Assembly: GCF_963675165.1 (NCBI RefSeq)
Contig: NC_087379.1
Coordinates: forward strand, 5,659,442 to 5,723,441
Origin: Halichondria panicea
Lineage: Eukaryota; Porifera; Demospongiae; Suberitida; Halichondriidae
Direction of reading: 5' to 3'
DNA: 64,000 nt
Shown here: positions 2,436 to 64,000 of the stretch, piece after piece
How positions within the stretch are numbered: the first letter of the stretch is position 1
How the letters are laid out: every line of letters begins with the position of its first letter
Program-made: the position numbers and the translations under genes
The notes under the pieces: model-generated
The model's input: the letters and a program-made list of their open reading frames with translations, nothing else
Database searches by the model: none
Told to the model about the DNA's origin: nothing

Positions 2436-5400
2436 TTAGTATACTATAGTTCTTCTTGTCTTTTCTTTCTTGTTCCGATTATTATGCTTCCTCCAAGGCT
2501 TTCCCTCAGAGTCAGTGAGTGGGCCTGGTCCCTGTCGAACTACACTTTTCGTGATGACACGAACTTGAGCCTGCATAACAAACATTTTGAGAACATTAAA
2601 ACTTAGCCACTAGTATCCCTTGATTTTACACAGCCTCCAACATTACATGTTATACGCATCAATAGTTATTAAAATCATGCATGGGAGCTTACTTGTCTGA
2701 AATATTCCTTGTCGAATTCACTCTTTGTTCGTGGTACCTGCAAAAGACATTAATATATCAGTAAGGCAGTCTCACAGTACACATCAGCACCTACGAACCT
2801 TGTCTGTACCAGCGGCTTCTTGTGTCACAGGCCCAACGGAGTCATCATCATCACACTGAGACGACTCGACAGAGGTGAACTGGTTGAACAGGGCAAGGTC
2901 GACACCAGGGGGAGGGTGAGAGTAGAGGAGACGGCCGTTCACATAGTCCTTTAGAATGTACCTGGCACTTCTGGGGCCGTCCGGTTGACCGTGGCTCGTC
3001 ATAAACCCTCTGACATCTGCAGAGGAAAATAATACAATATGGAATGCTACATAATATACAGTAGACTCTCGTTAATCCAGTCACCCTTGGGACCATGCAG
3101 CTTGGCCGGAATAGCGAGGTGGCTGTAGCTCAGGAAATAGCCGCGGCTTAAAAACGACCTTACCTCGAATCAAATGACTACTTTTGCGGTTCTTGTCTCG
3201 AGGATAATGTAGGATAATGAATCATTCTGTTCTCTATTTAAGTGTAATCCAATTTTATTTGCTAAACCACACCCAAAACGTCATATCCGGCCGTAAATAT
3301 ACGTATAAAATTACATTGAAAACCTTGTTTGGGACAGCCAGCACTGGCCGGTAAACGGAATAGCGAGTGGCCGTACTTCAGGGTGAGTTTTGTGCAGTAA
3401 ACATATAGCTAGCATTCCGTGCCAAGCCAAATGGCCGGTATATCGAGGTGGCCGTACTTCAGAGAGCCAGAATAGCGAGAGTCTACTGTAATTATGATGC
3501 AACGATCAAAAAGTACCCGGCTATTTGGCATCTAAAGAAACACTTAAAACTCCGAGTATGTATTCCCTAAGAGCTACACTAATGAGACGTAACGCTGTAA
3601 AATTAATGGTTTACAGAGTATACATTTATAGTGACATAATAATTATTATACTTACAGCCATAAGCTCCACATAGCTCCTCAGCATAAGGTGGTCGATCGG
3701 GATCCTCTCCTTCCTGGGGGTGTGGTAGTCTGATTCCGTAGGTCTCCTCGAGGATAGGCCGTGGGATTCGTGAGGCCACAAGGGACACTGGGGGAATATG
3801 GTCCCTCATCTGGTCTATGGGTAGGATCCCGCTCACAACCATCTCCGCTTTGGAGGTTACAAAGGTGGGGAAGACGAGGCCAGGACAATCACACAGGAGG
3901 AGGTTCTCGCTCAGGAACAGGGTCTTAAGTAAGGTGTGTAAGTGTTATGTGTAGTATTGGGTCATAGATGCTCATGTAAAAAAAACTGATAGTGTATCAA
4001 AAAGGATATACCGTATATCTTCTAATTTATCGGACACTTCTAATTACCCCGGACACCCTTTTGGGCTTTGAGTAGCTAGTTTTAGATAGCTAGTGCAACT
4101 ATTCAGTCGCACACTGTTCTATTAAACTTAGCTAGCTCGCATGCAGCTGCTTGCTTGTTCTAGACACTTCCATGCTCTATAAAAATCTGTTCCAATTATA
4201 CCCAGACAATTTCCAAAATAATTAAATTTTGCTGTCCGATAAATTAGAAGATATACGGTAAACACACCACATTGAGTTCACTACAATAACTCACCTGAAA
4301 GTGTTTCGTCCTCCCAGGAGTGGCAGACACTGGGACCTTCTTGCACTGAATGAGGGCATTGATGGTGGAGCTCTTTCCAACATTGGGGTACCCCACCTGT
4401 AGACAATGGAATTATAATTATAGCTTAATATAGACTAGCTTTTATTGTTACTTGAAACCTGTAATTTAAGTACTGCCAAAGAAATTAAACAACCGTGGGT
4501 GCTGATGCCTCAGTGGAGGTGCCAAAGCTGCATCATAAAGCTAATACCGTATAGCGCGAAATTTTTGAGGCACTTCTAAAAGCATTTCGTTGCACAATGT
4601 TCGTGGGATGACTGCTTACCGGAAGCCACGCCTTAATCTTTGTACGTTATAGAAGATAATTCTAATTAAAAAACAATTTTTGTGGACTTAATTTTCATGT
4701 AGGATTGCTAACGAAAACAGCGTGCTATACGGTAATACACATAAATTATATATGATGAACATTTTTGGTTTGCTGCATGCAGGCAGAATCCAGAATCACA
4801 GGGAAACTCAAAGAGTCGGAATCATCGACCATGATTGTTGTTAAAAACTATCGATGCAAAAAGTCCAAGTCTAAAATGAATGGCTGCATCAGCAGAGCCT
4901 TGCAGCTCTCTTCTCACTCTTACAGCTACCAATAGCTAGCGTTTTAGTACAGAGCTAACTACTAAGTAGAGTAGCAACACTCCAGGGACAATTTTTTCTA
5001 TGCACTCTTCTGAAAACGAAAACCTGACTAGAAGCCTATAGAAACTCTTACTTGCACTTCATTGATCCTTGAGCAGCTGTAACGGTCTACACGACAGACA
5101 TACACCTGCACATGCGCACCGAGGCATAATAATTATACTATGCATAGAGCAAAAAAGAATTGGGACAGCAATTTGCTGTCCTTTTGAGCAACTGAAATTG
5201 TCCAAAAAGGAGAGTTCGTAACGATACGAAGATCTACAGTGTTAATACAACGGTCTATCTACAATCACACTTAGTAATAATTATAGGTAACTAACTATAT
5301 CTACATCAACAGTCTACTAACACTCAGTCTCTGAATCAGGACCACTCTCAAAGTGAACGTCTAGATCTTCGAAATCAACATTGTGACAAACATCCTTTTC

Positions 5401-8400
5401 GTAAACCTCTTCAATATACTTTCTTACATTGCAATCTTCCTCACGCTGACGATACTGATATCTCTTTGCTGCTACTATGAAAGCCACAACACCTGCGACT
5501 GAAATAACAATGTTCACCAGGAAATAAACCAGTCCAGCTCGAGGGGAGTCCCACCAGAAACGAAACGGTAAAAGAATTCCAAGAACACCAATCAACTGAA
5601 AAAGTCCTTTAATAGCAAAAAAAATTCCAATGAGAAATCCTTTCATAGAGTGAGGGCTTTGAGCACAGATGAATTCAAACACTCCACCATAGATAAATAC
5701 ATAGGCCACAGCAACAAGGACTTGCTGAATAATGAGAATGAAGGGGCAGAGATGAAGGGTAATATCAACAAGAGTTCCATTATTAGTTGTATAGTTAAAA
5801 TCATAATAAAACTGAGGACCAAACACTGAGCCAGTATTATGGCTGTTAGCGAGAAGGTGACCAATGGTGTCGATAAACAGTGAGCAAAACAGACTAACAG
5901 AGATCAGACAAAGACCAATTCCAATTCGTCTCAAAATACCAGGGAGATACTTGTGGAACAGAGGATAAATAAACTTGAGAAAAATGGGGACAAAAAGAAG
6001 AAGGAACACAGGATACAGAGTGCTACCATTAGTGAACATGGAGTAAACAACGGTGCTAAAACTAATATCATATATCCTAATTAAGCCATTCTCTGCCTCC
6101 ATGTGATTCCTCAGTATATCAAGAAAAGGTGATGCAGCAATATCAGCCGTAAAGAATGGTCCAATTGATAGTAAAATGACAACAATTCCAAAAAACGATT
6201 TCACATTCTCCACTTGCTCGGTAGTGAATGGTCCTCCATACTTGTCCTTGCCTAGATCCAGTCCAGTGGGTATGTCATCCTCCCAGAATGTAAAGGCACT
6301 GCGTTGAATAGGAATCTTGTTTCTTCTTGCAAAGTCGACAACTCTTGCAACCTCTTTGTAAGGATTACCAATGCCAGTGTCAATAACAAACCACCTGCGC
6401 TTAGCAACACAGAAAGTTACTGGTACACAAACTAGCACAACTAACAGGACAAGTCCATATATAGAAAAGCTTAGGAAACCAGTGGCAATAGCTGAACTCC
6501 ATACCAGTTTCCCAAAACATATTCCAATATAGAGTGTGAAGAGAAACCAATGAATGAAAAGAAAGCTGTCTCTAGAAGGAGAATCAGTTAATTGGTCAAC
6601 TCCAAACTGAATAACGTTGGCTAAAAATCCAGCAAATGCAATCCATAAGGATAAAAAATAAATAAATCCAAGAACACCATCAATTACTCCAAGCGAAATG
6701 GCTAAAGACCAGTACAGAGGGTCTACGCTTCTAGTTAACATAATTGGTCCAATAACAGCGTTCACAATACCACCGACAACAATAAAAGTCGTGACTCCAC
6801 ACCACATGGTGCACATACTACATCTCACAACTTTATATCTGCCATACCGAACATCTGCTAAGTATCCGGCTAGAGGATAGAAGAGGAGCCAGATAGCAAA
6901 CACAGCATACACACCACAAGCTAATACTGTATTTTCTGTTAGGCCGAATAAATTCATTACATTGATCATAACTTCAGGATTCAAAAAACCACCATAGATG
7001 AAAGACATTAATGCAGTCCAAAAGAGAATCATTAATCCAGCCTTTGACTTGATTAGCACACTTTCCTTGTTGCCATATTTCCCGTGATTACTTATCACGA
7101 GTGGTGTGGCTTCAGTGGCATCTCTGCTGGCATCTGGTGCAGGAGTTTCATGAAGGGAAGCTTGCTCTATAGTTCCTTGCTCAAAACTTGCCATTGGTCT
7201 TACATGTACGTGAGTGTAGCTACTTGACTAAGTAAAGAAATGCTCACTACATTATGCAGAGTTACACCCATTATAAAAGCAACAATACAATATTAGCCAT
7301 AGCTAATCAGAGAAATCATGAATTCATACGTATGAGTATAGAACTACGGAGGCAACTTTAAACAATGTTAATTACTACTACTACAACGGTTTGCGAGTAT
7401 CACCACCATCTCATTCATGTATGCCTTGACATGGCTACCCCAACAGGAGCTCAACTGTGTCTCCATTATTATTCTATTATATCAAGAGTATGCTTATGAA
7501 AGCAACTACGTAGTTTCCTTAATGGGACCCGCCACTACTGTGGACTCCTTTTGGTAACACCCAACTTATGGGTATTTTCTTAGTTTTGGGAGTATTGCCT
7601 ATTTCTATTCCTTGGAGCTGAATGAGGGCCACCAACACTTACGTGCCGTACTCCCCCAAACCTAATCGCAGTCACGTGACAGAGATGAATGTGTACGTGA
7701 CATCTGCTTAGACAGTACTACTGAGGAGGAAATCTTTCGCTACCTGAAGAATTAAGAGCTGAAATAAACGTTCACCCCTTTCCCTACTTACTTTAGACGA
7801 CTATAGTCGGCATGGCTACCGATAATGTTCAAAAATCATTGTGCATGCCGTGTTGGAGCTATGCGCACGCTGCAGGTACCAGCACATGCGCATTGAGCTG
7901 CTCTTTCACATAGTATTCCTAATATTTTGCTTCGAGGTACAGTTCGATCAAAATCGTCGAAAGAAAAGTGACCGTTTGACAATATCTTCGTAGTGTAACC
8001 TCAGGGAGGTTCTAGGGAAGCTAGACAGTGAGAATATCGATGCCTACGGCCTTGAAGAGTGGGAGGACAGTGACTGGGATCATAGCTAGGTAGGAAGCTT
8101 CCTTTCAAAAGGTCAAGCTAAAAAGAAAGCTGAGCCTGAGAATCCTGAGGACGCATTTGAGGTGGACCATATGTTCTTGGACCTGGTGTAAGTAAGTATC
8201 ATGAGCGACCACTGAACTTGTAAACCTGTGTGTAGGTGAAGAAAATATTTCCCGGGAAAAGGGCGTCTGCTGATAGGACCTCACAGACAAGTTTCTCCTG
8301 ATTGAGCCATGTCACCGTGAGAACATTCTAAATACCTATATCATGTGTTCAGTCACTTCGTAACATCATATAATATTGTTTGTGTTTGTGTGCATAATTG

Positions 8401-11234
8401 TGAATTATTGCTAACAAATGTTAATTGCGAGGTGGTTGGTTGCTAGACAACGATGATGAATCCTTGCGCTGCAACAGGTCCGGTTCTACCTGTGGAACTT
8501 TGTTTAAATACATAGTTTTATGAGTTAAGGATTTTTTAAGCACTTTTAATTAAAGCAAGGAAAGCGGTAGCGGTTAACCGTTTTTAGAACTAAAAAATAA
8601 GTAAATTTTTACACACAAAACAGATTAAAAAATGTGGGCGGGGCTGTGTATTAACTGATTCAGCAATAATTGAAGGTTCCAGTCCTTAATTTGTTACGCA
8701 GTAGCAATACGGTATCAAGATTGATTTACATGCATGCACATAGAAAAAACATCCTGCAATCACTTTTGTACACCAGTATATTTATAGCAGGACATAATAA
8801 TCCAGCCACCCACCATTCCCACTGTAGTGAGCCCCCCGTCTTGTACTGGACTGACAGACAGCAGTAGTTCAACCAACTCCTCTCCAGTTAACAGTCGAGT
8901 GTCTCCTTCTCTGTCATCATCATCACTCACTACGTGGGAACAAAACACTAAATTAGTCAGCGTACAGTGACTGATAAAGTCCTCCAGCGAGGCTATACCT
9001 CGAGAGGTACGTAAAAAATGTATTTTTGTATCCCTAGTGTATGACATAATTATATATGTAACCAGTGGCTTATTAAGTGGACATAGCTAGGGATACATAT
9101 ATATATATTATGTTTACTTTTTGAATCAGAATGGTTTTCCTCTTCAATCGCAGGTTTAGTACTTTTGACTAAAAGCTTCTTGTCATTAGTTTCAATTTCA
9201 TCAAGTGCTGGCTCTACTGCAAAGTTAGTGTCTTGGGTTTCGATTGTTGTAGTCTTTACATCATCAACGGTATCAGTATCTATGGTGTCATTGACAGTGA
9301 TTGTCTGGTCATCCATTGCACATTCATCAGAGGAGGTGGAGTCATGGCGACTAGATGACTCGGAGTCAGGTTCTGATCCTGATTCCAGCATGGGACTCAG
9401 ACTTGGTGAATTCAACAGCTCGAGTTGTTGCAGCCGCTCAGTTTCCATGGTAGCAGACCAGAATGCTACAGTAAGGGACGGACAGTCTTCAGTGAAGTAC
9501 TTGAGCCATTCTTGCCTGCATTATAGATAACGAGCATTAGGTAATAATTATATACCGTATAGAGCACATTGAGGGTATAAGTGTTCGTGGTTTTCGCTGA
9601 TTAAGCATGTATCGCTAACACATTAATTATTTTTATAACCACACATTTAATACTGCAGCTATTCCTCAAAAATTAAATCCGAGAAAACATTTGTAACGGT
9701 TATTCCGCGAAAGTTGTGATACCAATCAGTCAAAATGATATTATTGTTAATTCTCACCGTTGCTTGAGTGTTAATAGGTCGGACTTGCTGATGAGCACTA
9801 CATTCACTTTCTCAGACTTTATTTCCTTCACATACTTCTCCTGGAGAAATGGTACAAAACAATAAGAGATCACAAAACAACTTGTTGAGCTTACCAAATC
9901 TTCACATCGGAAGAGAAGAGGATTTCGTGCATCAACGATCTGCACCACCACATCACTGAGCAAAATACAGCACTCAATCATGTGACAATCCACATCTACC
10001 GTAACACCAAAGGAGGTACGACACGAGTACCTCTATTAGGCTTGGTCACATGTGACTAATCGAGGTACTCGTGTCGGACCTCCTCTGACATAACACTCCA
10101 TCTATCCTAAACGTAATACAAGCATTATAATTATTATTGAATTACCATAATTTTGACGTAACTTTCAGCACTGAACACGCAATAGCTAAACACACTCTAT
10201 CTCGATCATTCTCACCTTCTCTCGATGACCCTCCACAGTTGTCTCCAGAACTCGAGGTTCCTCTCAAATGGAGTGAGGACCAACTTCTCGTTCTCCTCCA
10301 GTACCACGAGGCCCCTCCTCCACTCCAGGAATGAGTCCCTCTCCAACTGGTCCAGCTCTTTTCCTGTTGTCGTGGAGTCCCAGTGAGGCCTGGAGGGGAA
10401 CAAAAACAGAACTTAGTGGCACAACGTGTTACTCTATTCTCTCATTCAAAGGTAGCTAGCAACACCCCATCCCACATTAGGTCTTTTGATAAGTTATAAT
10501 AATGGGCCAAAAACAAGTCTCTCTGTTTATTGCTATAGATTGTGTGTTCGAGGCATAATTATTGTGTGTTCTGATACTATACCTTACCTTCTGGGGATGC
10601 ATAGGAACTCTTGATGATCTTTCTGAGCTTGCTCGATCTCTGCATACTCTGATGCACTGGGCAGACCCGTGTAAACACTAAAGTCCACCACCCGTATATT
10701 CAGCTTCTCTGCAATGACAAAGAATGAGACACAAACCTCCAAACTATATAAACTACTAAGATCGAGTGTAGGCATTAAAATCATTGTGTAGTTTTGCTAA
10801 ATACAAAAATTATGTGCTCTGCACAGCGTACCTGCTGTGAATTCAGTTCCTGCCAGTTTAGCGGTGTTGAGGAACTCGTCCAACCTACTCTCCTCAGTCA
10901 CAGAGCGGAGGTTCAGGCGACCCCACTCGTACCCATCCTCCAACTCACTGCTATGCAACTACAGGGAATTGAATACTCTTTGGTAAGCTAGCTATGTGCG
11001 TCAGACAGAATAGACATTGGTTTGATGATGATAATTGATACATTCTAGCTGGTATTAAAAGTGTAGATATATCTACTATATGCAGTTAGCTATCTCTTGG
11101 ACTTGATATCATAGACAAAGTCTCACCCAACTGTCTGCTTGTGCTTTTCCAGCACCTCTTCTCCTTCTGTTTTTGTCCTTGATGATGGCCTTCCCCAGAC
11201 CAGTCTTCCCACCTTTCTTTCCAGGTTGGCTCAT
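2436..11234 (-). CDS. LSG1: Large subunit GTPase 1 (LSG1), apparently intact 13-exon copy
   Basis: Thirteen GT-AG exons join in frame on the minus strand: 11234-11127, 10958-10832, 10708-10588, 10389-10216, 9955-9895, 9840-9758, 9515-9118, 8929-8814, 4396-4295, 3923-3656, 3016-2799, 2737-2693 and 2570-2436. The product is about 651 aa (human is 658). Its order is that of a circularly permuted YRG/YlqF-type GTPase: VVQIVDARNPLLFRCEDL, then G4 (LISKSD, about residues 214-219), an acidic insert in exon 7, G1 (GYPNVGKSS, about 398-406) and G3 (DCPG, 442-445). The tail includes GKPWRKHNNRNKKEK. LSG1 is known to release NMD3 from the cytosolic pre-60S ribosomal subunit. Intron 8 (about 4.4 kb) holds a whole POT transporter gene on the same strand. 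The exon 11 donor (GTTCG) is atypical but is also present in the second copy. This is the only LSG1 copy here without visible damage. Confidence 0.93.
3057..3490. mobile_element. pogo/Tigger-like MITE, copy 1
   Basis: Inverted ends TACAGTAGACTCTCG...GAGAGTCTACTGTA flank about 430 bp with no coding capacity, in LSG1 intron 10. Subterminal motifs such as GGCCGGAATAGCGAGGTGGCCGT repeat in both orientations; the flanking TA fits Tc1/pogo-type insertion. Close copies lie at 50415-50837 and 62820-63226. Class assignment rests only on the CAGTAGACTCTCGTTAATCC-type end. Confidence 0.8.
4009..4260. mobile_element. MITE with TACCGTATATCTTC ends
   Basis: About 250 bp in LSG1 intron 9. The left end, TACCGTATATCTTCTAATTT, is the reverse complement of the right end. 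It sits at a TA dinucleotide and has no ORF. A degraded relative is visible around 26090-26482. Confidence 0.8.
4545..4734. mobile_element. MITE with TACCGTATAGC ends
   Basis: About 190 bp bounded by TACCGTATAGCGCG and its inverted counterpart CGTGCTATACGGTA, in LSG1 intron 8. It shares end sequence with copies at 11462, 26494, 50228 and 63344. Non-coding. Confidence 0.7.
4735..5316. other. spacer downstream of POT-1, duplicated elsewhere
   Basis: Non-coding intron-8 sequence. Roughly 4790-5100 reappears, diverged, at about 28440-28810 next to another set of decayed LSG1 exons. It therefore belongs to the duplicated module rather than to a mobile element. No ORF of interest. Confidence 0.6.
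5317..7194 (-). CDS. POT/PTR-family (SLC15-like) transporter, POT-1
   Basis: An uninterrupted 625-residue membrane protein. A hydrophilic N-terminus (about 1-50, with an EATPLV dileucine-like motif) precedes roughly a dozen hydrophobic segments. POT-family marks include PLAGYLADVRYGRYK (107-121), IQFGVDQL (195-202), a long cytosolic stretch with FTFWEDD and KYGGPFTTEQVENV (about 298-335), and EFICAQSPHSMKG (507-519). POT members move di/tripeptides, nitrate or other solutes, mostly with protons; the substrate here cannot be read. The usual ExxER motif of helix 1 is absent: that segment reads LFWTALMSFIYGGFLNPE. The gene is intronless, nested in LSG1 intron 8 on the same strand, and has at least five long paralogues in the window. 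It could belong to a sponge-type POT subfamily distinct from PEPT1/2. Confidence 0.85.
   Translation of the reverse strand: MASFEQGTIEQASLHETPAPDASRDATEATPLVISNHGKYGNKESVLIKSKAGLMILFWTALMSFIYGGFLNPEVMINVMNLFGLTENTVLACGVYAVFAIWLLFYPLAGYLADVRYGRYKVVRCSMCTMWCGVTTFIVVGGIVNAVIGPIMLTRSVDPLYWSLAISLGVIDGVLGFIYFLSLWIAFAGFLANVIQFGVDQLTDSPSRDSFLFIHWFLFTLYIGICFGKLVWSSAIATGFLSFSIYGLVLLVVLVCVPVTFCVAKRRWFVIDTGIGNPYKEVARVVDFARRNKIPIQRSAFTFWEDDIPTGLDLGKDKYGGPFTTEQVENVKSFFGIVVILLSIGPFFTADIAASPFLDILRNHMEAENGLIRIYDISFSTVVYSMFTNGSTLYPVFLLLFVPIFLKFIYPLFHKYLPGILRRIGIGLCLISVSLFCSLFIDTIGHLLANSHNTGSVFGPQFYYDFNYTTNNGTLVDITLHLCPFILIIQQVLVAVAYVFIYGGVFEFICAQSPHSMKGFLIGIFFAIKGLFQLIGVLGILLPFRFWWDSPRAGLVYFLVNIVISVAGVVAFIVAAKRYQYRQREEDCNVRKYIEEVYEKDVCHNVDFEDLDVHFESGPDSETEC
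7252..7275 (-). promoter_or_regulatory. conserved upstream motif of POT genes
   Basis: ATGCAGAGTTACACCCATT lies about 60-80 bp before the POT-1 ATG. Matches occur about 58708-58726 (POT-6), 42693-42712 (POT-5, with a small insert) and split by transposons at 31776/37223 (POT-4). Conservation may reflect recent duplication rather than function. Confidence 0.35.
8003..8187 (+). other. possible gene fragment, unrecognised
   Basis: Two short open stretches, REVLGKLDSENIDAYGLEEW (from 8003, stop at 8087) and KGQAKKKAEPENPEDAFEVD (from 8108, followed by a GTAAGT donor-like site), have an acidic exon-like composition. They lie in LSG1 intron 8, opposite strand. I do not recognise a family. They could be remnants of a transposon gene or chance. 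Confidence 0.2.
10011..10084. repeat. 74-bp hairpin in LSG1 intron 4
   Basis: Left arm 10011-10033 (AGGAGGTACGACACGAGTAC...) pairs with right arm 10062-10084 with one mismatch, around a loop that itself contains GTCACATGTGAC. Probably a miniature foldback element. Confidence 0.75.
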
Positions 11235-12170: not shown

Positions 12171-12295
12171 GTGATCGCCAATTGCATTGCTAAGCTCCTT
12201 GGATCCTTGCACTGAATGAGGAGATTGATGGTGGAGCTCTTATGTGATCGCCGATTGCATTGCTAAGCTCCTTGGATTCTTGCACTGAATGAGCA
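12171..12295 (-). pseudogene. LSG1: two tandem scraps of LSG1 exon 9
   Basis: A 72-bp spaced direct repeat (GTGATCGCC.ATTGCATTGC... at 12171 and 12243) carries each time the sequence CTTGCACTGAATGAG. That is the reverse strand of the exon 9 segment LIQCK; only the first copy continues into ATTGATGGTGGAGCTCTT. No coding potential remains. Confidence 0.65.
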
Positions 12296-12470: not shown

Positions 12471-14630
12471 TATTTTTTTTTTTTTTTTTTTTTTTCTTTA
12501 TAATGTTTGATGCAGAGGAAGCATACAGGATATGACAAGGTAGCTAAATGAAGCTAATAATGAAGTCAGTCCATAACCAAAAAGTAAAGGTGCAGGTGCA
12601 GGTATACTTAAGTGAAAAAAAGAAAAAAGGAAAAAAAATTTTAACTTATTGCTATAATTTTGACAGGGATAATTTAAAAGCAGATGGGCTAGGGCTACTG
12701 ATAACATTTAGGGGAAGGGAATTCCAAATGGGGATTACGCTTACAAAAAAGGAATGTCTATGGGCTAGGGTTTTAACATATGGTTTAAAAATAATTTGAT
12801 TATGAGGGTGACGGGGGGAAGGGCGAGGATGGAGGGTGAAAACATTGGGAGATATTATAGATAAATTATTAAGTATATTAAAGCAGACTTTCAGTTTTTG
12901 GTTTTTCCTTCGAGATGACAGAGGTTTCCAGTTTAAGGAGGCAAGCAGGTCAGGGTATTCTGCCCTCCACTGCTTCGTTACAATTTTCCCTGCAAATTTT
13001 TGGACGCTTTCCAGTTTTTTTATATCTGTGTGGTGATGAGGGTCCCAGACTGCACCGCAATAGTCTAACTTAGGCAGAACAGCCGTGCGGTAGATCTGGT
13101 TCCTGATCTGAGGTGGTGATTTATGGAACTTGCGATGGATGAAGCCAAGATGTTGTTTGGCCTTCTTGCAGGTGTTGTGTATGTGACATGCCCATTTTAG
13201 ATCATTATTGATAGTAACACCAAGGTACTTTACAGTATCACATGGGGAGATCCTATGGTTGTTTATATCTATATTCATTGGGATAGTGCGTGTAGAGCGA
13301 GTTATTGTAAGCAGTTTGGTCTTGGAGTGGTTTGCTGTGAGGCCGTGAGATTGCATCCAGGAGTTTATTTCATTGACGTCTCCCTGTAGGTCCTGAGTTT
13401 CAATTGTCGAGTTTATGGGCTTGTAGAGAAGGATATCGTCTGCGTATAGAATGAGTTTGGCATTGGTGGACAGGTTGATGTTAGCAATTGAGTTCATGAA
13501 AATGTTGAATAATAGCGGTCCTAAGATTGACCCTTGTGGGACACCTGAGGTCACTGCAACAGGGTCTGACATAGTTCCCTCCAGGACTACCCTTTGCTCT
13601 CTGTTGGTAAGATAGTCTTTTATCCAATGCAGTAGGTTGCCACAAATGCCTACGACTTGGAGAGAGGATATGATCTGTGGGTGGGGTACTGAGTCAAATG
13701 CTTTCTTGACGTCAAAGAACACAGTTGCCACTTGGTGATCATTTTCTAGAAGTTTGTGCCAGCCGTTAGTGACAGATAGGAGGGCTTCTTGAGTTGAGGA
13801 TTTTGGTCTGAAGCCAAACTGGCAGTTTGACAGGAGCTTGTTTGAGTATAAGAACTTTGAGATTCTCTTGTGTACAATCCTTTCCAGAGCTTTTGAGATT
13901 AATGATAGGAGAGATATCGGTCGGTAGTTGCTAGGAGAAGTTGGATCCCCATCCTTCGGAATAGGAGTAACATTGGAGACTTTCCACAGGTCAGGGACTC
14001 TGCTTTGCTTGAGCGATCTATTGAATATCTTGGTGATTGTTGGGGAAATGGCAGTAGCAGTCCCTCGGATCATCTGGCTAGAAATGCCATCCGGACCGGA
14101 GGCAGTATTTGGTTTGCAAGAAGATAAGAGATGGTGGACTTCCTCTTGGGTGCACTCAATGTCACTGAGTGAGCAGTTAGGTGTTGACATTTCCTCAGGA
14201 GTACTGCAGGATGCAGTTGGTGAGGTAAAGAATGAGGCAAATGCACTGTTCCAGCATGTCAGCTTTTTCGAGCGAGGTTGTTGCTGTAGAATTATTGTTT
14301 TTCAGTTCAGCTGGTGTCCTGTTTTTTGACGGAGAGAGTTTGTTGTATGCTGACCAGAAATCTCTCGGGGAATTCAGTTTTCCTGCTAGGCACTTAAAGA
14401 ATTTGGATTTTGCAGATCTCAGGGCAGCCAACGTTTTGTTCCGAGCACTGGTGTACTTGGACCATGCTAGCTCTGATTTGAGTAGCTTAGCTTGTTTGAA
14501 GAGTTTGAGTTTTCTTTTAACAGCATTCATGAGGTTGTTTGTAAGATAAGGTAGACGATGCCTGTGTTTGATGGTTTTGGATGGGATTGTTTTATTTGTG
14601 GATACTGTCAGTAAAATAAACACGTATACT
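12471..14630 (-). mobile_element. 5'-truncated non-LTR retrotransposon (LINE) with reverse transcriptase
   Basis: On the minus strand, 14190-12652 encodes a reverse transcriptase of about 500 aa. Visible motifs are VTPIPKDGDPTSPSNYRPIS, FGFRPKSST, FFDVKKAFDSVPH, SGVPQGSILGPLLFNIF and the catalytic YADD in LILYADDILLY. An upstream open stretch (14623-14195) is the linker before the RT domain and is in another frame, so at least one frameshift separates them. No endonuclease domain is present: the copy is 5' truncated at about 14630. A T-run at 12471-12495 is the poly(A) tail. It inserted between the left end and the helicase remnant of the host transposon. Jockey/CR1-like by general appearance. 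Confidence 0.88.
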
Positions 14631-18362: not shown

Positions 18363-18425
18363 CCCCTGATGAGGGCATTGATGGTGGAGCTCTTGCCAAC
18401 ATTGGGGTACCCCACCTGTAGACAA
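18363..18425 (-). pseudogene. LSG1: LSG1 exon 9 fragment with 3' splice site
   Basis: The reverse strand keeps CTACAGGTGGGGTACCCC and the segment encoding [15 protein letters not shown], then breaks off. It marks the start of another LSG1+POT module. Confidence 0.85.
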
Positions 18426-18802
18426 TGGAATAGTATTTTAGTTATTGTTGCTATACTAAAACTACCTTGTCTAAAATTGTTTCACTACAATATTGTCCCA
18501 TGGGAGAAGTCATACAAAAGGTCACAACTATTGGTGTTAGTTTGACCTTCATAAAGTTGTCATAACTTTGTCATATTTCACTGAAATTCAAAGTTTCATA
18601 TACCATTGGATTCCTTGTTAAAAAGCGCTTCTATTGATATGCTGTAGAGCTGGTAAGCTCCAACCAGCTAAGAGATAACATTTTCCATGCAGAAGTCCCA
18701 GGAATACTTGTCCACCACATAAAGCATAAATGAAGCCATAATTGACCACATAACTTCTGGGGCTGAACACAATGCAAATAGATTATTTCAACAAATTTAC
18801 CA

Positions 18803-19560: not shown

Positions 19561-19706
19561 CCTCGCTGGGCATGCGCAACTGACACATAATTATAGCTAA
19601 TTCAAGTTCTCACTCAAATACAAACAAACTTGACTACCTTACCTAACTATCTGCATAATAGTTCTATATCACAGTACATGTGTACATCACTGCACACATA
19701 CAGTCG

Positions 19707-22209: not shown

Positions 22210-22690
22210 GAAAGAATCTAGTTCGCTCAACAGCTCATTTTTGTGTCCCCACCAACACACACACACACCGATCATTCTACCCCCCTGCTGCGTTCTGCCG
22301 CATGAATGGGGTAACATTCCCATACAGGGTTTCAAAGACAGTGGGGGTGCCCTGGGATTTCCCTTTCAGCCCAAGAGTCCCCCCTCTATATAGAAATTTG
22401 GGAATTCATATCAAAATATGTTATTATCCAAGAAACATAGCTTTGATTCCTTGCTAACTCTGCTGTGATAGTGTCAGTGCATGACCTATATACCACTGCA
22501 GATGCCATTCTCAAGGGATTTATTGATTTTTCTCCCTTTAAAAGAATTAGTTTAATGGTTTGAAGCACATAATCAACCTAAAATACACCTCAGAAAGTCC
22601 TCACGACTATTTCTGGGAGAGGACTCCTCATTTTTCTTGTATTAAACCCTATGGCACAGTTACACAATAATATTATAAATATTAAGCTTA
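22210..22690. other. intergenic, no gene seen
   Basis: No coding or repeat structure recognised between the small transposon and the LSG1 exon 9 remnant. Confidence 0.4.
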
Positions 22691-26710: not shown

Positions 26711-26821
26711 CATACAAACATAAATCGAAAAATGTATGTACATGTAAGTCGCTATAGTGTGTATATAGGGCTCGCTTTGCTTTTCCAATCGGCAGGCAAG
26801 TACATAATTATACATATACAC

Positions 26822-46891: not shown

Positions 46892-47966
46892 CGGTGTCAT
46901 AAAATTTTAGGCCCCCCCATGAGATTGGGCCCCCCCGGGCCTAGAATTTTAACATTTTAGGCCCCCTCTTAAAATTTTAGGCCCCCCATTAACAACGCAA
47001 CAGCGGTAACATTATATGACAGTGCATTCTCAAAATACACCAATACAGTCTTCTATGGTCTTCACAGTCTATGCAGTGCCAGTTACTGAATGCAGCTCTC
47101 CTCACACACACACATTTCATGCATGTACAGTAGTATACCACTGGTCTCACAGCCATCAGATTCACACTGCACCATGTCATTCTATGAATCAGGCCTCATG
47201 CAGCACAAAGCACATAGGTGCCAACTGTCCCGAATTGGTCAGGACTGTCCAAGATTACCCTTGTCCCGAAAGGAAACTGCTATTGTGATTCCACCATGAT
47301 ACAACAGTTTCTCTTGACTTCTATCTGTGATTCCACATTACTTGAGAGCTCAGCCAGTGATGCTATTGGAGCATCCCCACAACAATTTACATCTTCTATG
47401 TATAGGAAAACATGGAGGAAGATATGAATTGTTGTCTTTGCACTGAAATTGTGTGTTTTATACTTTTTTGTCCTGAAATTTGGCTGAGAAAGTAAGCACG
47501 AAGTTGCAAATAATTATTATGGCGATAGCTATGCAACAACATCGATTGTCTTACAGGCAGATCCAACATTGCAGAGCTGCATCAAAGCATTTAACTCTTA
47601 TAGGTAAAGCATAAGTAACTTGAAAGGTAAATTTTCCTTCACTTTGAATTCCATGATAGAATAATAATGCAAACATTTTTGCTACTTTGATACAGAGTCT
47701 TTGCATGCAGTCTCTTTGATGCTTTGTCAACTAATAGAGCTAACCTTACCATATTATTATATCTCTTTGACTTCGTTCTATCTTGCAGAAAAGGATAGCA
47801 GAAGAGGGGGGCCTAATCTCACAGTGGGGGGCCTAGAATGTTAACAGTTTGGACCCCCTGGGGGGCCTAAACTGTTAACATTCTAGGCCCGGGGGCCCCA
47901 AAATTTTAAAATTCTAGGCCCGGGGGGGCCTAAACATGGGGGGGCCCAAAATTTTATGACACCGGC
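46892..47966. mobile_element. 1.07-kb element with G/C-tract inverted ends
   Basis: CCGGTGTCATAAAATTTTAG at the left is inverted at the right (AAAATTTTATGACACCGG). Both ends carry arrays of TTTTAGGCCCCCC-type units. I find no clear target duplication or transposase. The right end lies only 17 bp before the first possible PTCD1 ATG. Confidence 0.78.
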
Positions 47967-47982
47967 TACAAAAAAGTAGAAG

Positions 47983-55687: not shown

Positions 55688-56802
55688 TTGTCTGAAATAT
55701 TCCTTGTCGAATTCACTCTTTGTTGGTAGTACCTGCAAAAGACATTAAGATATCAGTAAGGCAGTCTCACAGTACACATCAGTATCTGCGAACCTTGTCT
55801 GTACCAGCTGCTTCTTGCGTCACAGGCCCAATGGAGTCGTCATCATCACACTGAGATGACTCGACAGAGGTGAATTGGTTGAACAGGGCGAGGTCGACAC
55901 CAGGGGGAGGGCGAGAGTAGAGGAGACGGCCGTTCACATAGTCCTTCAGAATGTACCTGGCACTCCTGGGGCCGTCCGGTTGACCGTGGCTCGTCATAAA
56001 CCCTCTCACATCTGCAGAGGAAACAAATATAATATAAATGCTACATAATACATAGAAAGTACACAACACTTCCCTATCTGGCATATCCAAAAAGACCATT
56101 TAAGTATGAATTCCCTAAGAGCTACACTAATGAGACGAAACACTTTAAAATGGTTTACAAATTGTACATTTATAGTGACATACTTACAGCCATAAGCTCC
56201 ACACAGCTCCTCAGCATAAGGTGGTCGATCAGGGTCCTCTCCTTCCTGGGGGTGTGGTAGTCTGATTCCATAGGTCTCCTCGAGGATAGGCCGTGGGATC
56301 TGTGAGGCCACGAGGGATACTGGGGGAATGTGGTCCCAAAGGTGGGAAAGACGAGGCCAGGACAGCCACACAGGAGGAGGTTCTCAATCAGGAAGAGGGT
56401 CTTAAGTGAGTGTGTGTGTTGTGTGAAGTGTTGGGTAATGTACAGCATAGATGATCATGTGTGATACAAAAAGACAGAAAATATATACACACATTGAACT
56501 ATAATAGCTCCACCTGAAAGTGTTTTGTCCTCCCTGGAGTGGCAGACACTGGGACCTTCTTGCACTGAATGAGGGCATTGATGGTGGAGCTCTTGCCGAC
56601 ATTGGGGTACCCCACCTGTAGACAATGGAATTAGAGTATCTAGACAATTGCCTTTATTGTTGGTGCTTATGTACATACCCAAAATTGGAGCAATTATATT
56701 ATCCAATGTCCTAAAGCAAAAAGTTTATCATCAATACAAACATACAGTGGATAGCAATCGATATAATAATTACACAAAAAATGGCTTAGACAGCTTAAAC
56801 TA

Positions 56803-58653
56803 TTAACACTCAGTCTCTGTATCAGGACCACTCTGAAAGTGAACGTCCAAATCTTCAAAATCAACATTGTGACGAACATCCTTCTCGTAAACTTCTTCAA
56901 TATATTTTCTTACATTACAAAGTTCATGATACCTCTTTGCTGCCACTATGAAAGCCACAACACCTGCGACTGAGATCACAATGTTCACCAGGAAATAAAC
57001 CAGTCCAGCTTTAGGGGAGGTCTGCCAGAAACTAAACGGTAAAAGAATTCCAAGAACACCAATCAACTGAAAAAGTCCTTTAATGGCAAAAAAAATTCCG
57101 ATGAGAAATCCTTTCATAGAGTGAGGGCTTTGAGCACAGATGAATTCAAACACTCCACCATAGATAAATACATAGGCCACAGCAACAAGGACTTGCTGAA
57201 TAAAGAGAAAGTAAGGGCTGAGATGAAGGGTTTGATCAAATACAAATCGGCCACGTTCATAGATAATCTTGACAGGAGCAAACACTGAAGTAGCATTCTG
57301 GCCACCAGGAAGACAGTGACCAATTGTATCAACAAAAAGTGAGCAAAACAGACTAACAGTGATAAGACAAAGACCAATTCCAATTCGCCTCAGAATACCA
57401 GGGAAGCACTTTTGTAACAGAGGATGAATAAACTTGAGAAAAATGGGAACAAAAACAACGAGAAACACAGGGTAAAGAGTGGTACCATTAGCGAATATGG
57501 AGTAAAAATTAGCCTCCGTCTCTGTATCCATGTGATCTTTCAGTATATTAAGAAAGGGTTCTGCAGCAATATCGGCCATAAAAAATAGTCCTAGTGCAAG
57601 AAAAATAAAAACAATTCCAAAAAATGATTTCACATTCTCCACCTGCTCAGTAGTGAATGGTCCTCCATACTTGTCCTTGCCTAGATCCAGTCCAGTGGGT
57701 ATGTCATCCTCCCAGAATGTAAAGGCACTGCGTTGAATAGGAATCTTGTTTCTTCTTGCAAAGCCGACAACTCGTGCAACCTCTTTGTAAGGGTTACCAA
57801 TGCCAGTGTCAGTAACAAACCACCTACGCTTAGCAACACAGAAAGTTACTGGTACACAAATCAGCTCAACTAACAGGATAAGTCCAAATATAAAAAGGCT
57901 TAAGAAACCAGTAGCACTAACTGCACTCCATATCAGTTTTCCAAAGCTTATTCCAATATAGAGTGTGAAGAGAAACCAGTGAATGAAGAGAAAGCTGTCT
58001 TTAGAAGGAGAATCATTTAATTGGTCAACCCCAAACTGAATAACATTGGCTAAAAATCCAGCAAATGCAATCCATAAGAGTATAAAAAAAAGAAGTCCAA
58101 GAGCACCATTCACTACTCCCACTGAAATGATGAAATTGGGGTAAGGTAAATGTATCAAAATTGGTACCATAATAGCATTTACAATGACACCGATAACAGC
58201 CACAGTCAAGAGTCCACACCACATGGTACACACACTACATCTCACAACTTTATATCTTCCATATCGAACATCTGCCAAGTATCCAGCTAGAGGATAGAAG
58301 AGGAGCCCGAAAGCAAATACAGCATATATACAACTACCTGTCACCCCATTGGTGAGATAGCTAACTTTTAATGGTGACGTTACAGTAATAATGTTATAAT
58401 TTCTCAAGAGGAAATCGAGTAAGAAATAGTTTTCAGGAATCAGAAAGGTGCCGTACACAATAGACATTAAAGCAGTCCAAATAAAGATCATTACTGCAGC
58501 CTTTGACTTGATCAGCACACTTTTTTTCTTGCCATATTTCTTGTGATTACTTGTCACGAGTGGTATGGCTTCAGCGGCATCTCTGCTGGCATCTGGTGCA
58601 GGAGTTTCATGAAGGGAAGATTGCTCTATAGTTCCTTGCTCAAAAGTAGCCAT
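56803..58653 (-). CDS. POT/PTR-family transporter, POT-6
   Basis: An intact 616-aa intronless frame, start MATFEQGTIEQSS. POT marks PLAGYLADVRYGRYK, FGVDQL, FTFWEDD, KYGGPFTTEQVENV and EFICAQSPHSMKG are present. It has the longest loop after helix 1 (NYNIITVTSPLKVSYLTNG) and a shortened loop before helix 8 (DTETEANFYS). In the tail, a few codons after AAKRY are missing relative to POT-1 (no QYRQR), but CNVRKYIEEVYEKDV and the acidic end remain. The tail resembles POT-1 (NVDFEDLDVHF), whereas the loop near 450 resembles POT-5 (GQNATSVFAPV). That mosaic pattern suggests conversion between copies. Confidence 0.87.
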   Translation of the reverse strand: MATFEQGTIEQSSLHETPAPDASRDAAEAIPLVTSNHKKYGKKKSVLIKSKAAVMIFIWTALMSIVYGTFLIPENYFLLDFLLRNYNIITVTSPLKVSYLTNGVTGSCIYAVFAFGLLFYPLAGYLADVRYGRYKVVRCSVCTMWCGLLTVAVIGVIVNAIMVPILIHLPYPNFIISVGVVNGALGLLFFILLWIAFAGFLANVIQFGVDQLNDSPSKDSFLFIHWFLFTLYIGISFGKLIWSAVSATGFLSLFIFGLILLVELICVPVTFCVAKRRWFVTDTGIGNPYKEVARVVGFARRNKIPIQRSAFTFWEDDIPTGLDLGKDKYGGPFTTEQVENVKSFFGIVFIFLALGLFFMADIAAEPFLNILKDHMDTETEANFYSIFANGTTLYPVFLVVFVPIFLKFIHPLLQKCFPGILRRIGIGLCLITVSLFCSLFVDTIGHCLPGGQNATSVFAPVKIIYERGRFVFDQTLHLSPYFLFIQQVLVAVAYVFIYGGVFEFICAQSPHSMKGFLIGIFFAIKGLFQLIGVLGILLPFSFWQTSPKAGLVYFLVNIVISVAGVVAFIVAAKRYHELCNVRKYIEEVYEKDVRHNVDFEDLDVHFQSGPDTETEC

Positions 58654-58759: not shown

Positions 58760-59586
58760 GAGCATGATGAATTTAATTATGATCTGTGACATCATAATTA
58801 CTACCTGTTTTACTTCCGTAGTAAAAATGTGCTGAGCTGGCATGCTGTTTACTATGAAGTCAATGTAAAATCATTGCGTTTTTGCAGCCTCTGCATTCTG
58901 CAATATAAGCGCTGTTATTCTAAATAAAGGAAGTTTGTGAAATATTGAAATAAGAGCTACACAATGGTTTTTGTCCCAGAGAGTGATTGTCAACTGTCAG
59001 TGAGCTCGCTAGCCTTGAAGATACCTACTACATACACAGTAAGTGCAGTATAGAGCAGCAGTAGTAGATCTAGAAGACAAACTACTGCTCAAGGGTGATG
59101 GAACGCAACAACTACATTGTAGGCATCTGCAGAATTAGGCAGATGTGGTGTTCCATCATGTCCATCTTGAGCATTTATAGTTTGCAGATCTAAGAGGCAA
59201 CTAATGCTCAAGGATGATGGAACAACACATCTATTCTGCAGATACCTACCGTGTAGCAGTGGTGGTCCACCATCCTTGAGCAGTAGTTTACCTTCTAGAT
59301 CTACTACTGCTGCTCTATACTGCACTTACTGTGTATATAGTAGGTATCTTCAAGGCTAGCGAGCTCACTGACAGTTGACAATCACTCTCTGGGACAAAAA
59401 CCATTGTGTAGCTCTTATTTCAATATTTCATAAACTTCCTTTATTTAGAATAACAGCGATTATATTGCAAAAACGCAATGATTGACTTCATAGTAAACAG
59501 CATGCCAGCTCAGCACATTTTTACTACGGAAGTAAAACAGGTAGTAATTATGATGTCACAGACCCTAATTAAATTCCTCATGCTCA
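58760..59586. mobile_element. 827-bp foldback (near-complete palindrome)
   Basis: Arms run from GAGCATGATGAATTTAATTA inward and from the inverse ending near CTCATGCTC outward. Matching blocks include CTACCTGTTTTACTTCCGTA, TGAGCTGGCATGCTGTTTAC and GTAGATCTAGAAG. The pairing continues to within about 100 bp of the centre (about 59173), where further short inverted copies of GCTCAAGG.TGATGG occur. No ORF of note. Confidence 0.9.
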
Positions 59587-60533: not shown

Positions 60534-62819
60534 ATAGTAGACACAACAAAAATGGCTGTCAAAAGTTTATTTCAAGAAGCATGAAGAAGTCTGTTCTCAA
60601 CCTCCTACTGGGGGTTCCACAGGAGCTAAAGTTCGAGACTGAAGATACCAAGCAAGTCTTTGTAGGTTTAATTGACAGTGCTAAGCGTTGTCTTGCTGCC
60701 AGACATTCATTGGCCCAGCATGAGGATCTGACAAACTGATGCTGATGTGGACATAAATAACTCAAGTAAGTAGTCCATAGGTCTATAGTAAAGTTAGTAG
60801 TCTAGTATAAAGTAATGTGACTTCATCAACCTGCGAACGCTTTTTCGCTTTTTAACATTTGCATTTCATTTTACGGATAAAGTAGTACGAACAGGAGAGT
60901 TGAAAGTCTGTAGGGAAGGACCTTTGTATAATATCTATTTGCAGTTTGTTCGTTCATATATACAGTCATTATGCCTCAGTTGGGCATGCGCAAGATATAT
61001 GGTAGTGTGTCTGTGTGTGTGTAGATCGACTGTTACAGCTGCTCGATGATAATGAAGAGTTTCTGTATAATTATTGTAGGCTGCTAATCATAATTATTAA
61101 TTTTCTTGAATTCCAATTAGTTGGGTTTGCAAAATAATGCTTATGATTATGTTTGCTTACTTTGAAAGCTAGTACAACTTGTGTGTAACAAAATAGGGGA
61201 ACAACGAGAGAATAAAGTAAAATAAAAAGAATTATGCATTATCCGCCATGGCCGATGAATCCATCTAAAATGTAAATTATATGTACAGTGTTCATTAATA
61301 ATGGTACTGCATGTAGCTTCATTGCCTACACCGAGACACCGAGGCATCATCACCCTTTCAGTAACATTCATTTTTTTCTCAGGTCGCGTTGAAGACGCTT
61401 TGAAGGACTGCGACTGCCTTTGCTTGTTGACAGTCTCCCTGGGTACACCATCAACCTATGTAGAAAATGTAAGTATTAAGTATTACTTATCAGTGTATCT
61501 AGCAATTATCCTATTATATCCCTAGCTCTTTGCTGGGGAGAGGAGAGCCTCACTGTCTGGTGGCATGCACTCCACTTGCCCTATTAAAATGGTAGTAAAG
61601 AGTGATATAGATGTACTGATATTCATATAAATTCTTTTTCAGAATCGAACTTTCGATGAATTTCCACAATGGCATATTTTCAATGCCGTCTATTATGCAA
61701 GAAAGCAAGCTTCCTAACTCTTCCACAACGTTCCCTGGACTGTAGCTGACCTGGAGCTGAAAAGATTCCTTTATTGTGCATAGCCTTTTGCTGTATCTAT
61801 TCATAAAGTATTTTGTCAGCCATTATGATAATCATTTATTTTTTTGTTTTTTGTTTCTGCTTCTGGTAAAAAAGAAAAACTACCAAGAATGTATTTCCTT
61901 TCCCTTTGTGTATATTTTTGAGTGTTCACAGTGTGTAGCGAATGGGTTCTGAGCGCTTTTGCGCAAGAGAAAAAAAGAGCTCGTTACTAAGGCTTGAATG
62001 GAAATTTTGGGGTCAAAGGTCGCGCCCACGGCAGCTCTTTTTATACTCAAAACTCGCTCCGAGTTCCGGAAGTTGCTAATCCGGTAATTAAAGCCAACAT
62101 GCTCGTTTAAATGAAAAGGCCTATTAGAGTTGTTCACGCTCAATGTACCTTACTTTAAATTAACATTTATTAGAACCTTATTAACACCTTACGTTATGTA
62201 ATATTTACTACTACCTTAACCATGATTTGATGTTGATGTTGATATCATACTCTTCTCTCATGGTTAGTGCTCCACTTCCTCCCTTTGTTGTTGTGCGAGC
62301 CTCTGGGGCCCTGCTCCACGTATTTAAGGTTTTGTTTACCTTTTTTGCCTCACTTCACTTTAACTTCACTTTAAGTTCGTTTTACTCTCATTTTACCCTG
62401 TATTGTCAGTTGATGTTTTGCTCCTCGATCTAAGAATTTGGTTAAGCTACACTGTGAAGTCAATTTGTCTATAACTAGTTGTTGTTACTTATAGCTAGGA
62501 GCCTGTCTCTAGCTACTTTGTCTAGCCTGTCTAGAATCCCTCTACACCAAGATAAGAGCTCAACAAGAGTAGAGAGGCAATTTTAAACAATGTTAATTAC
62601 TATTTATGTTTTCTGCTGATTTGGCTCATTACACCTCGGGCATGCGCAAGCAAGGTATACGATAGTGTGTTTGTGGACTGCTCTCTAGGCTTCTAGCCAT
62701 GTTTTCTTGGATTTGCAAAATAATTGTTGCTTCTCGAGTTATGCATTGTTTTGCTTACTTGGAATGCCATTGCAGCCTTTTTAGAAGAGTGCGTATTAGC
62801 AAGTTAGTAGCTTTATGTA
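60534..62819. other. LSG1-B intron 8, possible plus-strand gene fragments
   Basis: 60581-60739 (+) is open and exon-like: MKKSVLNLLLGVPQELKFET, then IDSAKRCLAARHSLAQHE. 61380-61468 (+) reads GRVEDALKDCDCLCLLTVSL and is bordered by AG and GT-like sites (CTCAGGTCGCG; AAAATGTAAG). I recognise neither. They may belong to one small unidentified gene or be chance. The rest looks non-coding. Confidence 0.25.
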
Positions 62820-63226
62820 TATAGTAGACTCTCGTTAATCCTGTCACCCTTGGGACAGTGCAGCTTGGCCAGAATAGCGAGGTGACTGTATTCAGGAAAT
62901 AGCCGCGGCTTAAAACCGACCTTACCTCGAATCTAATAACTAATTTTGCAGTTCTTGTCTCGAGGATAATGAAGGAAAACGAATCATTATGCTCTCTATT
63001 TAAGTGTATCCAATTTTATCTGCCAAACCACACCTAAAACGTCATATTCGGCCGTAATAAACGTATAAAATTACATCGAAAACCTAGTTTGGGGCAGCCA
63101 GCACTGGCCAGTATACGGAAGAGCGAGTGGCCGTACTTCAGGGTGACTTTTGTGCAATCTATGCCAAACCAACTGACTGGTATATCGAGGTGGCCGTACT
63201 TCAGAGAGCCGAAAGAGTCTACTGTA
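62820..63226. mobile_element. pogo/Tigger-like MITE, copy 3
   Basis: TATAGTAGACTCTCGTTAAT...AGAGTCTACTGTA; same interior as 3057-3490 and 50415-50837 with scattered small deletions. Confidence 0.8.
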
Positions 63227-63585: not shown

Positions 63586-64000
63586 TACATACATACAGAA
63601 ATTGCAATCACTTTTATCACACAAGTATAGCGGAACATAATAATCCAGCCACCCACCATTCCCACTGTAGTGAGCCCCCCGTCTTGTACTGGACTGACAG
63701 ACAGCAGTAATTCAACCAACTCCTCTCCAGTTAACAGTCTAGTGTCTCCTTCTTCATCGTCATCACTCACTACATGGAAAAAAAACTAATGTAACCATGC
63801 AGCTTACAGTGATAATGAATGTATCTCTAGAGTACATGCAAAATGCATTTTTGGGTCCCTAGCTCCACTCAATAAGCAACTGGTTATGTACAAAATGTAT
63901 GACATAATTTATAAGTATTTATATATAAGTTCCTTTTTGAATCAGAATGGTCTTGATCTTCAACTGAAGGTCTAACACTTTCAACTGGAGGCTTCTTAGC

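Follow-up and report, generated by a model that had tools for sequence, protein, structure and literature searches.

The 64,000-nucleotide stretch of the sponge Halichondria panicea analysed here (NC_087379.1, positions 5,659,442-5,723,441 of the plus strand; hereafter the window) carries a complete LSG1 gene, a damaged second copy of it and a series of genes related to the POT transporter family. Coordinates given without a prefix are those of the window; the contig is called C3, and a C3 coordinate equals the window coordinate plus 5659441. LSG1-1 is the only full 13-exon LSG1 found by an LSG1 protein search of the genome, and its best match in the PDB is 6lsr_1 (“Large subunit GTPase 1 homolog”, E 2.2e-184), which we take to be human LSG1; the alignment spans query residues 12-249 and 275-554 of 557 and is thus nearly full length. 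This search returned 58 rows, with only short matches outside C3, on C7, C2 and C13, which are read as related GTPases. LSG1 exon limits were checked by eye. A whole POT gene lies inside intron 8 of LSG1-1 (POT-1) and another inside intron 8 of the second copy, LSG1-2 (POT-6); both are therefore nested genes, and both stand on the host strand between exons 8 and 9, as a preliminary description of this DNA had stated. Between the two hosts are found POT-2, POT-3, POT-4 and POT-5, two POT fragments and remnants of LSG1 exons 9 and 10 (Table 1).

The open reading frames (ORFs) of POT-1, POT-2, POT-5 and POT-6 are open through a normal-looking tail, the tail of POT-4 is frameshifted and POT-3 is broken near its N-terminus. 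Like the SLC15A3/SLC15A4 (PHT) branch, all six window ORFs match Pfam PTR2 (PF00854; 39.3-64.6 bits, gathering cut-off 27), and their nearest solved structures are SLC15A4 (E 1.4e-14) and SLC15A3 (E 1.2e-9). Unlike that branch, to which these matches are distant, the ORFs lack ExxER, the proton-coupling signature in transmembrane helix (TM) 1 of POT transporters, which is missing from all 12 open ORFs of the larger array described below. The genes are therefore POT relatives for which proton-coupled peptide transport should not be assumed; a 12-TM major facilitator superfamily fold is predicted by homology to SLC15A4. A POT alignment gave 139 pattern matches with none confirmed in a viral collection (viral_contigs) and 32 with none confirmed in a prokaryotic collection (genome_contigs), both of which are uninformative on other animals.

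Table 1. LSG1 and POT features of the window, in window coordinates unless marked C3.
Feature	Position	Strand	Remarks
LSG1-1	2439-11234	minus	13 exons, from exon 1 (11127-11234) to exon 13 (2439-2570)
LSG1-1 exon 9	4295-4396	minus	10-residue motif; 3' neighbour of POT-1
LSG1-1 intron 8	4397-8813	minus	hosts POT-1
POT-1	5317-7194	minus	intact intronless ORF, 625 amino acids, in LSG1-1 intron 8
LSG1-1 exon 8	8814-8933	minus	5' neighbour of POT-1
Exon-9 remnant	12198-12241	minus	1 kb 5' of LSG1-1 exon 1
Exon-9 remnant	18364-18453	minus	adjoins POT fragment 2a
POT fragment 2a (3' half)	18806-19567	minus	
POT-2	19707-21524	minus	open ORF, 605 amino acids
Exon-9 remnant	22679-22847	minus	3' of POT-3
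POT-3	22959-24828	minus	frame broken near N-terminus
POT fragment (ORF middle)	25755-25944	minus	
Intron-8 5' end at module junction	26796-26870	minus	at most the last ~19 exon 8 bases, weak
Junction filler X	26871-27100	minus	77% to the copy at 37.4 kb
Weak exon-10 remnant	27102-27206	minus	64%, E 0.001; overlapped by short inverted POT-like stretch
Exon-9 remnant	27347-27509	minus	module with no POT found
Exon-10 remnant, POT-4 module	28879-29075	minus	reaches 29244 at lower stringency
Exon-9 remnant	29257-29424	minus	3' of POT-4
POT-4	29972-31738	minus	open for 588 amino acids, frameshifted tail
Intron-8 5' end, POT-4 module	37315-37414	minus	match stops at most 3 bases from exon 8 donor
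Junction filler X	37415-37640	minus	between intron-8 donor and exon-10 flank
Exon-10 remnant, POT-5 module	37640-37909	minus	
Weak exon-9 remnant, POT-5 module	38134-38262	minus	65% DNA identity, E 9e-5
POT-5	40766-42643	minus	intact ORF, 625 amino acids
Exon-8 remnant 5' of POT-5	45992-46079	minus	about 60 exon bases
LSG1-2 exons 12, 11 and 10	55688-56400	minus	exon 10 with 55-bp deletion
LSG1-2 exon 9	56514-56615	minus	4 synonymous, 0 non-synonymous changes
POT-6	56803-58653	minus	intact ORF, 616 amino acids, in LSG1-2 intron 8
LSG1-2 exon 8 (63657-63773) and end of exon 7	63657-63997	minus	
LSG1-2 exons 7 to 1	past window, to C3:5725350	minus	

The window is the left third of an array of about 200 kb, whose last mapped feature lies at C3:5,855,742, about 132 kb past the window. 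The region mapped (C3:5659442-5863499, 204,058 bp) was joined from overlapping loci without gaps or conflicts, and it belongs to a single assembly of 131,455,214 bases in 39 contigs, which was the genome searched throughout. Feature rows were merged by hand and split POT rows joined, giving 31 POT places, 19 exon-9 places, 12 exon-10 places and 9 exon-8 or intron-8-donor places. Three inverted POT-like stretches of 43 codons each (C3:5686564, 5751790 and 5780294) and one chance-like plus-strand exon-7 row were omitted. With the exception of an inverted POT fragment (5774052-5774859), every feature counted lies on the minus strand. LSG1 DNA gave no match to the reversed sequence, either for 11.3-64 kb of the window or for the whole 204-kb array, so the exon remnants taken together are not due to chance. 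Single remnants vary in strength. In the window the weakest are those at 38.2 kb (exon 9) and 27.2 kb (exon 10), and of the 12 exon-10 places in the array three (5686543, 5751769 and 5780273; 64%, E 0.001) are weak and overlap the inverted POT-like stretches. In a search of the whole genome with exon-9 DNA, all 17 rows fell within the array (C3:5663687-5841265) on the minus strand, one of them a 17-base row at E 6.9, and exon-9 DNA was not found elsewhere.

The usual unit of the array runs from the intron-8 donor through POT to exons 9 and 10 and is not a whole LSG1 gene; its exons 9 and 10 are mostly truncated or out of frame. The preliminary description had proposed that LSG1 exons with a nested POT were duplicated together at least seven times and that the host copies then decayed. 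Joint duplication is borne out, and more than seven duplications are present, but the unit is usually the shorter one and no more than three LSG1 5' halves were detected (LSG1-1, LSG1-2 and LSG1-3); decay fits the module exons and not of LSG1-2, which broke late. Decayed exon 9 or 10 was said to border the other POT copies, which is correct for most of them and fails for POT-2, separated by fragment 2a from the exon 9 at 18.4 kb. These exons lie on the left-hand side, the 3' side of minus-strand genes, rather than on the right as had been written. Exon 8 remnants had also been placed at POT-4, POT-5 and the 25.8-kb fragment. Only the one at POT-5 stands; at POT-4 (37.3-37.4 kb) what matches is the beginning of intron 8, as it is at 26.8 kb, where at most the few weak exon bases listed in Table 1 are included.

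Several layers of duplication can be seen in the array. Among self-matches of at least 300 bp and at least 90% identity, 60 of 66 are in direct orientation. Recent blocks include 9.7 kb at 97.5% identity (C3:5757804-5767371 with 5783238-5792848) and 11.7 kb at 98.8% (C3:5817463-5829110 with 5848860-5860566), and C3:5703368-5706335 matches 5822108 and 5853542 within the same 97.5-99.5% set. The segment at 27.0-31.7 kb of the window repeats piecewise at C3 5751.7-5763.8 and 5780.2-5789.3 kb (91-97%). At lower stringency, 17 of 601 self-alignment blocks (76-99% identity) have a POT stretch together with an LSG1 exon in each of the two copies, and the remaining 584 fall short of the thresholds set; self-comparison thus favours the joint duplication that had been suggested. 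The modules at 26.8 and 37.4 kb share a junction in which some 226 bp of filler connect the intron following exon 10 with the beginning of intron 8. This filler is found at three places in the array over most of its length (100, 94 and 77%) and as a short piece at a fourth, with further short pieces near C3 5751 and 5780 kb. A junction that would have been made once and copied later fits these sequences best. Together, the collinear blocks of POT and host exon and the shared filler junction indicate tandem segmental duplication.

The filler has relatives elsewhere, as 92 bp of it are 87-88% identical to C1:5326599-5326690 and C1:5410612-5410703, which are 84 kb apart. An ORF near the first of these has a zinc-protease-like HEFGHVLGLDHE motif, and the ORF of the junction filler itself has no Pfam match.

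An array of this kind could be lengthened artificially if haplotypes were strung together or repeats mis-sized during assembly. Allelic difference in highly heterozygous animals can reach the range of 97.5-99.5% identity, into which the most recent blocks fall. Between most copies, however, divergence is 10-20% at POT and as high as 39% at exon 9, far above allelic difference, and the junctions lie inside an 8.48-Mb contig of the 39-contig assembly with no N runs across the 204 kb. An artefact is unlikely for copies that are 75-94% identical, the 97-99% blocks remaining candidates, and as an account of the array it is quite improbable.

A further question is whether the POT genes and the host exons share one history. 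Of the 14 modules with both parts, 7 have the same nearest neighbour by POT as by exon 9 (M3, M4, M15, M16, M20, M21 and M22), and the other 7 do not. Several observations weigh against a simple joint descent. POT and exon-9 distances are not significantly correlated across the 14 modules (Mantel r=0.18, P=0.13), also when the two LSG1 genes are removed (r=0.24, P=0.12) or when one module per recent block is kept (r=-0.06, P=0.53). POT-1 and POT-6 are not sisters in the maximum-likelihood tree although both lie in LSG1 copies; six nodes of this tree have support below 75, so the deep order of the POTs is unsure. POT-2 and the modules M8, M24, M27 and M28 have no directly adjoining exon 9. Older POT-exon pairings are not preserved, which speaks against the simplest passenger model, and the expected agreement of POT and exon-9 trees is obtained for half of the modules and for recently duplicated blocks, whereas the deep histories differ.

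Recombination through the POT ORFs offers a source for this disagreement and is seen directly in one module only, M26. The exon-9 flank of M26 is 94-100% like M7 in six of seven hundred-base windows (77% in the seventh), whereas its POT body is 87-100% like M8; the switch lies near C3:5841450-5841600, within the POT 3' end. A Sawyer-type runs test on shared third-position variants of the 12 open ORFs gave 78866 against a permuted mean of 51813, a value reached in 0 of 300 permutations; this test, like the ratios of non-synonymous to synonymous polymorphism (pN/pS) given below, treats the copies without correction for kinship. The chimera and the runs test point to recombination among POT ORFs, rather than separate origins, as the reason for the POT/exon-9 disagreement and for the non-sisterhood of POT-1 and POT-6.

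Separate origins would mean that POTs arrived independently, by retroposition or transposition, in LSG1 introns that were already duplicated, the exon association being secondary. The single-exon ORFs of the POT genes would suit such an origin, as would the many distant POTs of the genome that are also single open frames (468-677 amino acids) and the discordance of deep histories. However, POT-1 and POT-6 occupy the same intron, the distance from POT stop to exon 9 is similar (~180-190 bp) in POT-3 and POT-6, collinear blocks cross both POT and exon, and the chimeric M26 is explained by exchange within POT. Independent arrival is accordingly given very little credence.

A search of the genome with POT-6 gave at least 84 matches, counts for large families being lower bounds. 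Close matches lie at C3:5.66-5.85 Mb, nearly all 63-100% identical, and smaller groups are found at C3:5.37 Mb (66-76%; extent 5371336-5376729), C5:2.23-2.27 Mb (49-77%; 2228188-2268487), C2:1.64-1.65 Mb (55-59%; 1643403-1652139) and C4:3.35 Mb (65%); the remaining matches are 28-43% identical. The 5.37-Mb copy groups among the array copies in the tree. Such outlying copies raise the possibility of a mobile element, Helitron-like or similar, that captured LSG1 exons with POT and carries the module. A POT copy 290 kb away in opposite orientation (C3:5375001), the inverted fragment and three short inverted stretches within the array, and the transposon ORFs and palindromic repeats of the window could be taken in this sense. 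Against it, exon-9 copies were confined to the array in the genome search, LSG1 exons gave no match at the eight loci examined at the 5.37-Mb, C2 and C5 POTs, and the layout is tandem and nearly all same-strand. A mobile carrier is the most improbable of the explanations considered.

The further LSG1 copies retain much of the host. LSG1-2 comprises exons 1-12, with the deletion in exon 10 and an exon-7 donor that reads GG in place of GT; its exon 13 was not found in the LSG1 mapping of the array. LSG1-3 comprises exons 1-8 and is broken in exons 2 and 7. An exon-9 remnant lies 5' of exon 1 in all three copies, at 1 kb in LSG1-1 and 0.8 kb in LSG1-2 and LSG1-3, so a module probably stood there before LSG1 was duplicated. 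The three copies diverge by 1.0-1.3% in exons 1-6 and by 6-14% in introns 1-5. Across exons 1-6, 9, 11 and the alignable parts of exon 10 (exons 7, 8 and 12 left out), LSG1-1 and LSG1-2 differ by 32.5 synonymous and 7.5 non-synonymous changes, where neutral evolution of LSG1-2 from the duplication onward predicts 54.5 non-synonymous changes (Poisson P 5e-15). The deficit is weaker and still present once exons 7, 8 and 12 are added (43.5 synonymous, 35.5 non-synonymous, 73.6 expected, P 4e-7), in a count that overstates the changes in exon 8, aligned without a one-codon gap (really three substitutions and one missing codon). Exon 7 alone, on the other side, gives no sign of constraint (21.5 non-synonymous against 5.5 synonymous); aligned with human LSG1, it corresponds to a linker of poor conservation. 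Gene conversion between LSG1 copies may contribute to the similarity, but it lowers both classes of change. Amino-acid changes far below the neutral expectation indicate that selection preserved LSG1-2 over a large part of its history and that its breakage came late. A plain neutral pseudogene was considered for LSG1-2 and is rejected on the deficit in both counts.

The closest pair of LSG1 copies varies from intron to intron (introns 2, 5 and 6; C3:5670150-5668955 and counterparts). In the intron before exon 3, for example, copies 1 and 3 differ by 2.6% and copies 1 and 2 by 18.7%. Such shifts are a sign of patchy gene conversion among the copies.

Selection is also acting on the POT genes. 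Twelve ORFs of at least 588 amino acids are open in the array, those of M15 and M20 being among the intact ones. Segments were assigned to loops and TMs by hand from hydropathy and the SLC15A4 alignment, and the 12 open ORFs give a pN/pS of 0.34 [0.26-0.47] for cytosolic segments, 0.38 [0.31-0.46] for TMs and 1.04 [0.91-1.23] for outward loops, bootstrap intervals being undefined for several short segments where some samples held no synonymous change. The POTs are thus under selection, with outward loops that are relaxed and near neutral. The TM9-10 loop, at 1.53 [1.09-2.36], is possibly diversifying, a value that is not proof of positive selection. Along the ORF pN and pS are correlated (r=0.67), which fits what conversion centred on conserved parts would give; in the window, synonymous divergence per 30-codon block ranges from 0.05 to 0.57.

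These ratios bear on the suggestion that the array is functionally dead and its ORFs relics that have not yet decayed. Broken or fragmentary genes make up 19 of the 31 POT places, the tail is altered in three of the twelve ORFs that are open, and pairwise dN/dS in the window is a relaxed 0.42-0.58. Yet the 12 ORFs are still open, though the ten compared differ by 3-18% in DNA, and pN/pS is low outside the outward loops. A dead array is therefore unlikely.

The best-supported explanation, which is very probably correct, is that a POT gene lying within LSG1 intron 8 was amplified in tandem with host exons into the ~200-kb array and later reshuffled; the earlier interpretation as a whole is partly supported, its nesting in intron 8 and its joint duplication being borne out. 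The starting state would have been a single-exon POT-family (SLC15-like) gene in LSG1 intron 8 on the host strand. An illegitimate event of end-joining type, with filler, might then have linked the intron that follows exon 10 with the 5' end of intron 8, creating the repeating unit. Unequal homologous recombination would have multiplied the units head to tail, and larger blocks would also have been duplicated, including at least two more LSG1 5' parts with their upstream exon-9 remnant. With POT ORFs serving as a substrate of exchange, the histories of POT and host exons would have been reshuffled. Under selection, around twelve POT ORFs stay open and a single LSG1 remains complete, the module exons decay, and LSG1-2 was long maintained before it was broken. 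The anatomy, the shared junction, the collinear blocks, the chimeric M26 and the selection on the POT ORFs and on LSG1-2 are observed directly in the sequence. The order of these events is inferred, as is the end-joining character of the first junction, the POT genes presumably have promoters of their own, and any substrates assigned to them would be presumptive.

A number of other features surround these genes in the window. Between POT-4 and its intron-8 donor, ~5.4 kb (31765-37221) contain disrupted ORFs for TNP-type transposases, with RNase H N, GBD and C domains. At 12652-14301 there is an ORF for a reverse transcriptase (RVT_1, E 3.9e-45) resembling those of long interspersed elements, between LSG1-1 and POT fragment 2a. 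An 826-bp palindrome, 86% self-complementary, is located directly 5' of POT-6 (58760-59585), and shorter palindromes are present at 27642-27782, 40473-40610 and 47829-47921. The inverted POT-like stretches (43 codons, 63%, E 1e-7; window 27123-27251, C3:5751790-5751918 and C3:5780294-5780422) overlap weak exon-10 remnants of one module family, and inverted capture of a POT piece is possible. A ~430-bp dispersed repeat occurs at 3057-3490, 50415-50837 and 62818-63226 (82-91% alike). It lies in LSG1-1 intron 10 and is missing at the LSG1-2 counterpart, so it was probably inserted after the copies separated. Between POT-5 and POT-6 stands a pentatricopeptide-repeat gene (47960-49703, plus strand), which we take to be PTCD1-like; the gene and its neighbourhood recur at C3:5825182-5827613 and 5856616-5859047 (about 94%). 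The neighbour of LSG1-1 exon 13, at 800-2200 on the minus strand, is by its translation presumably SSR3 (TRAP gamma).

Known systems show parts of this arrangement. In human RCCX (STK19-C4-CYP21-TNX), a tandem module is cut through neighbouring genes, truncated STK19B and TNXA remain at the junction, and non-allelic homologous recombination drives copy number and exchange (PMC8362596). The sponge array likewise has direct modules, shared junctions and truncated flanking genes, with a chimeric module in one case (M26). Unlike RCCX, for which that account, as far as it goes, describes 1-3 segments and no gene nested in an intron of the cut gene, there are 31 POT places here, the gene retained is itself intronic in the host that is cut, and block duplication can be seen in several layers. 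F8A/int22h is an intronless gene in intron 22 of human factor VIII (F8) that has extra copies outside its host and acts as a recombination substrate (PMC3211038), features shared with the POT genes. There are three copies there, the nested one antisense to F8 and the extras ~500 kb away, whereas the POT copies are tandem, parallel to the host and accompanied by host exons. Whole genes within single introns are common in animals, same-strand ones included, and the nested-gene counts given in that source describe none that expanded as an array with host exons, as here (PMC8527503). The literature searched yielded no account of a POT nested within LSG1, which is a limit of the search and not proof of absence. 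The array is a large and unusual case of a known process, differing in its same-strand nesting, copy number and layered blocks.

A more far-reaching and rather improbable proposal is that the transporter, by residing in an essential gene's intron, turned into a repertoire that amplifies and diversifies. Conserved cytosolic segments would keep the copies exchangeable by conversion while outward loops diversify as in recognition or symbiont-facing families, and LSG1 splice sites may still put some copies in LSG1 transcripts.

The leftover host exons are unselected markers beside a selected gene, so that the birth, shuffling and loss of copies can be read stepwise. In many modules of one locus, a near-neutral clock (exons 9 and 10) thus stands next to a gene under selection (POT). 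Through its position in a host intron a nested gene became a large family, and the host persists in a single complete copy at the array's edge.

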